This document shows positions 41,293-41,335 of a DNA stretch of 64,000 nt, piece by piece (position 1 is the first letter of the stretch; every line of letters begins with the position of its first letter). This DNA comes from Lachnospiraceae bacterium (GTDB taxonomy: Bacteria > Bacillota > Clostridia > Lachnospirales > Lachnospiraceae): NCBI GenBank assembly GCA_016284315.1, contig JAEEOO010000033.1, forward strand, positions 1 to 64,000, read 5' to 3'. The notes under the pieces are model-generated. The model was not told the origin of the DNA. It was given only the letters and a program-made list of their open reading frames with translations, and did not search any database. A program made the position numbers and the translations under genes.

Positions 41293-41335
41293 GTTTCCTC
41301 CCTTGGGTACTATCATTATACCACAAGGGAGGAAA
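41293..41335 (-). promoter_or_regulatory. SD-sequestering hairpin with an extended -10 promoter in its loop, upstream of the EAL gene
   Basis: GTTTCCTCCCTTG-tGGTATAATGATAGTACC-CAAGGGAGGAAAC; SD AAGGGAGG lies in the 3' arm; TGGTATAAT in the loop. Confidence 0.65.

Follow-up and report, generated by a model that had tools for sequence, protein, structure and literature searches.

How might an EAL gene that sits directly behind a codirectional operon come to be expressed independently of that operon? The question is raised by a hairpin lying between the two, one which would hide the Shine-Dalgarno sequence (SD) of the EAL gene, and which holds a promoter-like sequence in its loop. The window, i.e., the whole stretch of DNA analyzed, consists of 64,000 nt from a Lachnospiraceae bacterium (contig JAEEOO010000033.1, positions 1 to 64,000), the source assembly being incomplete (79 contigs, 81% complete). 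Coordinates below are those of the window.

The EAL gene and the upstream operon

The EAL gene (39360-41288, minus strand) encodes a 642-aa product, the N-terminal region of which is hydrophobic and which carries an EAL domain (PF00563) at residues 394-624, that is, a predicted c-di-GMP phosphodiesterase. Upstream, and codirectional with it, is a DUF4097 gene (41345-42433, minus strand), the stop codon of which is found 8 nt before the hairpin and 56 nt from the EAL ATG. The DUF4097 gene is the presumed source of read-through. It is preceded by HAAS (DUF1700-like) and PadR genes (42430-43366, minus strand), which form the start of the operon, and before these is a putative operon promoter (43455-43483, minus strand; TTGACA-17-TATAGT, 11/12 consensus matches in a promoter scan), presumed to be where read-through RNA originates. 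The EAL, DUF4097, and PadR assignments of a preliminary description of this locus were right, with what was there called DUF1700 corresponding to HAAS. As a separate observation, an imperfect inverted repeat of 27 nt (43436-43490) lies over the putative PadR-operon promoter, covering both its TTGACA -35 and its TATAGT -10, and is a candidate PadR operator.

Anatomy and folding of the hairpin

Read along the minus strand, the order of elements is DUF4097 stop codon, 8 nt, GTTTCCTCCCTTG-t-GGTATAATGATAGTACC-CAAGGGAGGAAAC, and then ACTTATG, which includes the EAL start. The two arms, as identified by a repeat finder, are 13 nt each, 100% complementary, and 18 nt apart. The 5' arm GTTTCCTCCCTTG (41324-41336) is an ‘anti-SD’; the 3' arm CAAGGGAGGAAAC (41293-41305) holds the SD itself, AAGGGAGG (41304-41297), which ends 8 nt before the ATG at 41288. 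The 13-bp stem is extended in the fold by pairing of GGTA (41319-41322) with TACC (41306-41309). A perfect 13-bp stem with this same extension had been described previously, as had the placement of the SD, and both descriptions hold except that the outer coordinate of the stem was given one base short (41336, not 41335).

As an RNA of 111 nt this region folds at -36.6 kcal/mol versus -20.9 +/- 3.2 for shuffled sequences (z = -4.9), with 0/200 shuffles equally stable. No T-tract follows the stem, ACTTATG being found there instead, and a terminator scan called no minus-strand terminator at the site, in agreement with the earlier view that this is not an ordinary terminator. Rfam models run against 40800-43700 gave no match up to E = 1, that is, no known riboswitch or RNA thermometer family was recognized over that interval.

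A predicted promoter nested within the hairpin

Within the loop is TATAAT (41315-41320, minus strand), an extended -10 with TGG in front, the TA of which is shared with the GGTA/TACC stem extension. The corresponding -35-like hexamer, TGGAAA (41337-41342, minus strand), is found just 3' of the DUF4097 stop codon. Together these constitute TGGAAA-16-TATAAT with a TG before the -10, for 10/12 consensus matches in the promoter scan, though with a -35 that is weak; the loop's extended -10, as previously proposed, is thus borne out. The 5' arm of the hairpin lies entirely within the 16-nt spacer separating the -35 and -10. From -10 spacing, the predicted transcription start is an A at 41308, 7 nt past the -10, which would give a leader of 20 nt. 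RNA from the nested promoter is thus predicted to begin inside of the TACC extension and to retain the SD in full while lacking the 5' arm altogether. Freeing the SD is computed to cost 21.6 kcal/mol when RNA arrives from upstream versus 3.8 kcal/mol in the predicted short RNA, a difference that agrees, at the level of computation, with the earlier suggestion that read-through RNA masks the SD and that RNA started in the loop does not.

Rarity within the genome and genus

To what degree this arrangement is unusual was considered using 1.55 Mb of sequence from the source genome plus two others of the genus, in which 499 genes have a clear SD. Among these, just one has its SD masked by a perfect stem 9 bp or more in length, that one being the EAL gene. 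Shuffled controls for the same 499 genes yielded 0.25 such stems per set at 9 bp or more and, over 20 sets, none of 12 bp or more. With the 67 SD genes that also possess a nearby -10, the difference in SD-opening cost between long and short RNAs was 19.7 kcal/mol for the EAL gene and 6.9 kcal/mol for the next, with no shuffle set reaching 15 kcal/mol. As the EAL hairpin is an outlier in both tests, i.e., of stem length and of opening difference, it is explained neither by chance nor by any genome-wide tendency. The idea of nested, SD-masking hairpins as a genome-wide habit was rejected on this basis, the EAL hairpin being the sole strong case in 1.55 Mb.

Absence from EAL orthologues

Orthologues of the EAL gene were taken from nine further genomes within the genus, where identity is 47-62%, from ten within the family, and from one additional Lachnospiraceae MAG (L042). 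A search covering 10 genus and 10 family genomes found the hairpin in 0/20 orthologues. Conservation of the hairpin in relatives had been put forward as a check in the preliminary description, and the result comes close to the outcome there taken as contrary, though gene context differs as well. Because the hairpin is absent from 20/20 orthologues, there is no covariation to be had for the EAL gene.

What the six closest orthologues, all of the genus (L002-L007), do possess is TG[GA]TATAAT or something near to it upstream, with longer leaders, that is, of approximately 80 nt or more from -10 to start. Their upstream neighbors are genes other than DUF4097, and DUF4097 relatives elsewhere in the genus sit on contigs other than that of the EAL gene. 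Among the genomes compared, an EAL gene behind PadR-HAAS-DUF4097 is seen solely in the source genome. Since orthologues differ in upstream neighbor, the hairpin is tied to a gene junction seen in none of them; judged from these comparisons, it is a lineage-specific element. Confinement to that junction fits with insulation of the EAL gene following rearrangement, as a single case. In 5 of the 10 closest genus orthologue neighborhoods, however, a codirectional gene ends within about 120 nt upstream and there is no hairpin, such that insulation is not generally needed.

Two other observations concern these leaders. In four of the orthologues (L003-L006) a small stem (ACCC...GGGA or GGGT) just past the -10 appears to open the leader, its loop side differing among species; this is possibly a 5' stabilizing stem. 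An origin of the EAL leader by a deletion through which a 5' stem seen in orthologues became joined to the start was considered and dropped, as the alignment is ambiguous.

The same layout at other genes of the genus

Though missing from orthologues, the layout, i.e., anti-SD, TATAAT, and SD in that order, can be looked for before unrelated genes. Across 31 genomes of the genus this pattern was found 11 times, versus 3 times with a scrambled arm. The scrambled-arm control was added because a backward pattern alone is too weak, as -10 and SD naturally co-occur. With AAGGAG arms there were 5 matches versus 7 backward, that is, no excess.

Two families of unrelated genes emerge from the genus matches, one being an MCP gene and the other a lipoprotein gene. 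The MCP gene, which is of the Cache-domain type, shows the layout in five species (L161-L165), approximately 20-75 nt before the start and with the anti-SD located in the -35/-10 spacer, the form in one of these genomes (G009) being weaker. Its arm pairs are TTCCTCCTA/TAGGAGGAA, CCCTCC/GGAGGG, and AAACCTTCTAAA/TTTAGGAGGTTT, with AAAGTATAAT or AGAGTATAAT always following the arm and with a -35 resembling TAGACA in most cases. The lipoprotein gene shows the layout in three genomes (G002, G016, G026), as does a related gene in a fourth (G013), for four species in all (L153-L155, L147), as a long SD-masking stem around TTTATAAT that extends from approximately 70 to 10 nt before the start. In G013 the lipoprotein arms CCTCCTCAT/ATGAGGAGG are changed to CCTCCCCAT/ATGGGGAGG, a paired change of T-A to C-G. 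A paralogue of the EAL gene (L013, in G012) has TAGACA-ATTTCTCCCCCTCCCCC-TATAAT, with GGGGAAGGGGGAGATG then found downstream.

All of these loci resemble the EAL gene in arrangement: the anti-SD lies within the -35/-10 spacer or directly precedes the -10, the arms enclose TATAAT, and the SD is part of the 3' arm. They differ in that leaders are longer (about 30-60 nt) and stems less perfect, with a T-run following the SD in some.

Swapping of arms between species weakens pairing, with the native combination best in 3/3 lipoprotein rows and 4/5 MCP rows; the EAL arms pair with each other at -26.6, and at no better than -15.0 when combined with the arm of another gene. Drift of arms with complementarity kept, as seen at the MCP and lipoprotein genes, is as expected were it RNA pairing that is maintained. 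Of the evidence for a function of the layout as a type of element, these paired changes are the strongest, though they come from genes other than the EAL gene itself. The mechanism could be better tested at the MCP gene than at the EAL gene.

Family and phylum

Over 397 Lachnospiraceae genomes, a 6-nt version of the pattern gave approximately 87 matches versus 27 backward and 35 with a scrambled arm, as counted from listings. Arms pair for 4 or more further bases inward in 16 of the 82 distinct family matches, where 1.1 would be expected given permutation of arms between matches, and 0/2000 permutations reach 16. Among the family loci retrieved, strong hairpins (L175, L185, L194) are located at gene starts, with a codirectional neighbor ending 17-55 nt upstream. 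Some of the loci retrieved have a T-run between SD and ATG, and such loci, going by their sequence, might also terminate transcription.

One of these merits description in its own right. The start of a clpX-like gene (L175; G411:C15:64216-64255) follows a hairpin of 13 perfect base pairs that masks the SD; its loop holds TATAAT, a T-run separates SD from ATG, and a codirectional ORF ends 17 nt before. This one element could act at once as a terminator, a promoter, and an SD ‘lock’.

A search across the phylum with 7-nt arms returned 20 matches versus 1 backward. The inward-extension test was not significant with these phylum-wide matches, and for that reason no phylum-wide claim is made. Three species of one genus outside of the Lachnospiraceae (L216-L218; the genus of G391) have in common a same-layout hairpin, TCCTCCTT..GGCTATAATAACC..AAAAAGGAGGA.

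Comparison with known systems

Read-through RNA of IS10 and IS50 folds so as to hide the transposase start, a form of protection from outside transcription. Those, however, are mobile elements, with arms supplied by the element's end.

Comparable as well are certain genes of phages, i.e., T4 e (lysozyme), soc, and 49, along with the homing endonucleases I-TevI/II/III, segB, and Aeh1 mobE. For these, the SD is sequestered in a stem when a long RNA is started upstream, whereas a promoter within or beside the 5' strand of that stem gives rise to RNA which lacks that strand and which is translated (PMC3014915, PMC2988022). With T4 e, the long RNA yields approximately 100-fold less protein (PMC3014915). 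The EAL element is like T4 e and I-TevI in that a stable stem, as computed, pairs with the SD in RNA entering from upstream, and in that a promoter is placed, so far as can be read from the DNA, such that its RNA would lack the 5' strand. The inner promoters of T4 e and I-TevI are T4 middle or late promoters, which require phage factors, and the resulting switch is a temporal one. The EAL promoter looks instead like an ordinary, vegetative, extended -10 promoter, and the gene is that of a chromosomal c-di-GMP enzyme.

A chromosomal counterpart is supplied by sigG (spoIIIG) of Bacillus subtilis, which is found behind spoIIGA-sigE. There a hairpin of 20+ bp is proposed to block translation of read-through RNA, a hairpin that cannot form in RNA from PsigG (PMC5942855 and work cited therein). 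The sigG gene resembles the EAL gene as a chromosomal Bacillota gene subject to read-through from an adjoining upstream operon; it differs in that its promoter is read by sporulation sigma factors, in that gene and regulon are unrelated to EAL, and in that its own RNA has a second, small hairpin at the ribosome-binding site (PMC5942855).

By every feature visible in sequence, then, the EAL element would work as do T4 e/I-TevI and sigG, with what fails being conservation at the same gene. Because some e genes of T4-like phages are also without the hairpin, its conservation is not strictly defining for a switch of the T4 e type (PMC3014915). The EAL hairpin probably belongs to this T4 e/sigG type of read-through-silencing switch.

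Proposed mechanism

The explanation favored here, which we consider reasonably probable, is that of a promoter-nested, SD-masking hairpin that prevents translation of the EAL gene from read-through RNA and permits it from RNA of the gene's own promoter. Thus PadR-HAAS-DUF4097 RNA, meeting no called terminator before the EAL gene, would read through into it. As that RNA emerges it would carry the anti-SD arm, which would pair with the SD arriving 18 nt later, excluding ribosomes. For a polymerase starting instead at the extended -10 of the loop, the anti-SD would remain non-transcribed promoter spacer, and the resulting short-leader RNA (approximately 20 nt), with its SD free, would be translated. 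Selection may have been for insulation, keeping a c-di-GMP enzyme apart from a PadR operon of an envelope-stress type. Insulation from a neighboring operon is a more economical form of the idea than that offered in the preliminary description, i.e., that phosphodiesterase output is coupled to which promoter is used, which is stronger than the evidence; the observation made there is confirmed and its interpretation is supported in part.

A broader suggestion, offered tentatively, is that an anti-SD within the -35/-10 spacer might be a reusable chromosomal device in Lachnospiraceae, and perhaps Clostridia. A single short sequence would then act in DNA as the spacer of a promoter and in read-through RNA as a lock on translation, with a further role as terminator stem at some genes, thereby letting gapless neighbors be expressed independently. 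Such a device may arise anew when a gene acquires a foreign operon as its upstream neighbor, which is what would have happened to the EAL gene.

Alternative explanations

SD-masking hairpins between adjacent codirectional genes are a common means of translational coupling, and the locus may be viewed from that perspective instead. Ribosomes ending DUF4097 would then open the hairpin, EAL protein would be made only when DUF4097 is translated, and the TATAAT of the loop would be incidental. The DUF4097 stop is, after all, only 8 nt from the stem. By estimate, however, a ribosome at that stop covers roughly 12 nt beyond it and would melt no more than the initial pairs of a 13+4 bp stem. As a terminating ribosome would reach solely the foot of the stem, and as the next start is 56 nt on, coupling to DUF4097 is less likely. 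Retention of the extended -10 upstream of orthologues which have other neighbors also argues against coupling, and overall this explanation seems unlikely.

Alternatively, a functional promoter may give rise to a short leader, and the anti-SD of its spacer may be a chance palindrome or neutral fossil that lacks any selectable effect. It is in keeping with this that the hairpin is retained in none of the orthologues examined (0/20), and that it is rare in the genome, a single case picked from a scan of many features. Nothing as long was seen, however, in 20 sets of shuffles of 499 genes, and other genes of the genus show the same layout with paired changes. So stable a stem over an SD would, furthermore, be expected to affect any read-through RNA whether or not it has been selected. 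Chance or fossil origin is thus judged to be improbable.

Quite improbable is that the inverted repeat is instead an operator in DNA, one that binds a dimeric repressor, with the RNA fold a by-product. The symmetry of the arms around the -10, the 31 bp (about three turns) between arm centers, and the PadR-type regulator encoded upstream would all suit such a role. But one arm is the SD, which accounts for its sequence, and the arms of the MCP and lipoprotein genes drift in parallel with complementarity kept, which fits pairing and not a fixed protein site; for these two reasons the operator is less likely. The putative PadR-operon promoter region, moreover, bears a different inverted repeat (43436-43490). 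Least credible, indeed very improbable, is a bare transcription terminator or an RNA processing or stability stem serving the PadR operon, for although a strong, GC-rich stem does come directly after that operon, and although several same-layout loci of the family have a T-run between SD and ATG, here ACTTATG rather than a T-run follows the stem and no terminator is called on the minus strand.

Implications

If a promoter-nested, SD-masking hairpin does function as proposed, then at such sites gene order would give a misleading picture of operon membership. Transcription of the EAL gene would accompany that of the PadR operon, with no translation from the shared RNA, such that RNA-seq levels would not be predictive of protein. 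The range of a switch of the phage or sporulation type would, in addition, come to include ordinary genes of the chromosome, those for c-di-GMP turnover, chemotaxis, and lipoproteins, in a family dominant in the gut, and there would be a simple sequence signature to search for. The mechanism itself is well documented for T4 e and I-TevI; what would be new is the frequency of the layout at ordinary chromosomal genes in Lachnospiraceae.

The surroundings offer one last observation. Divergent from PadR, on the plus strand, is a large gene (43606-46596) the translation of which has EAL-type motifs along with an apparent, degenerate GGDEF-like sequence. Apparent c-di-GMP genes, i.e., this gene and the EAL gene, are thus found to both sides of the PadR operon.
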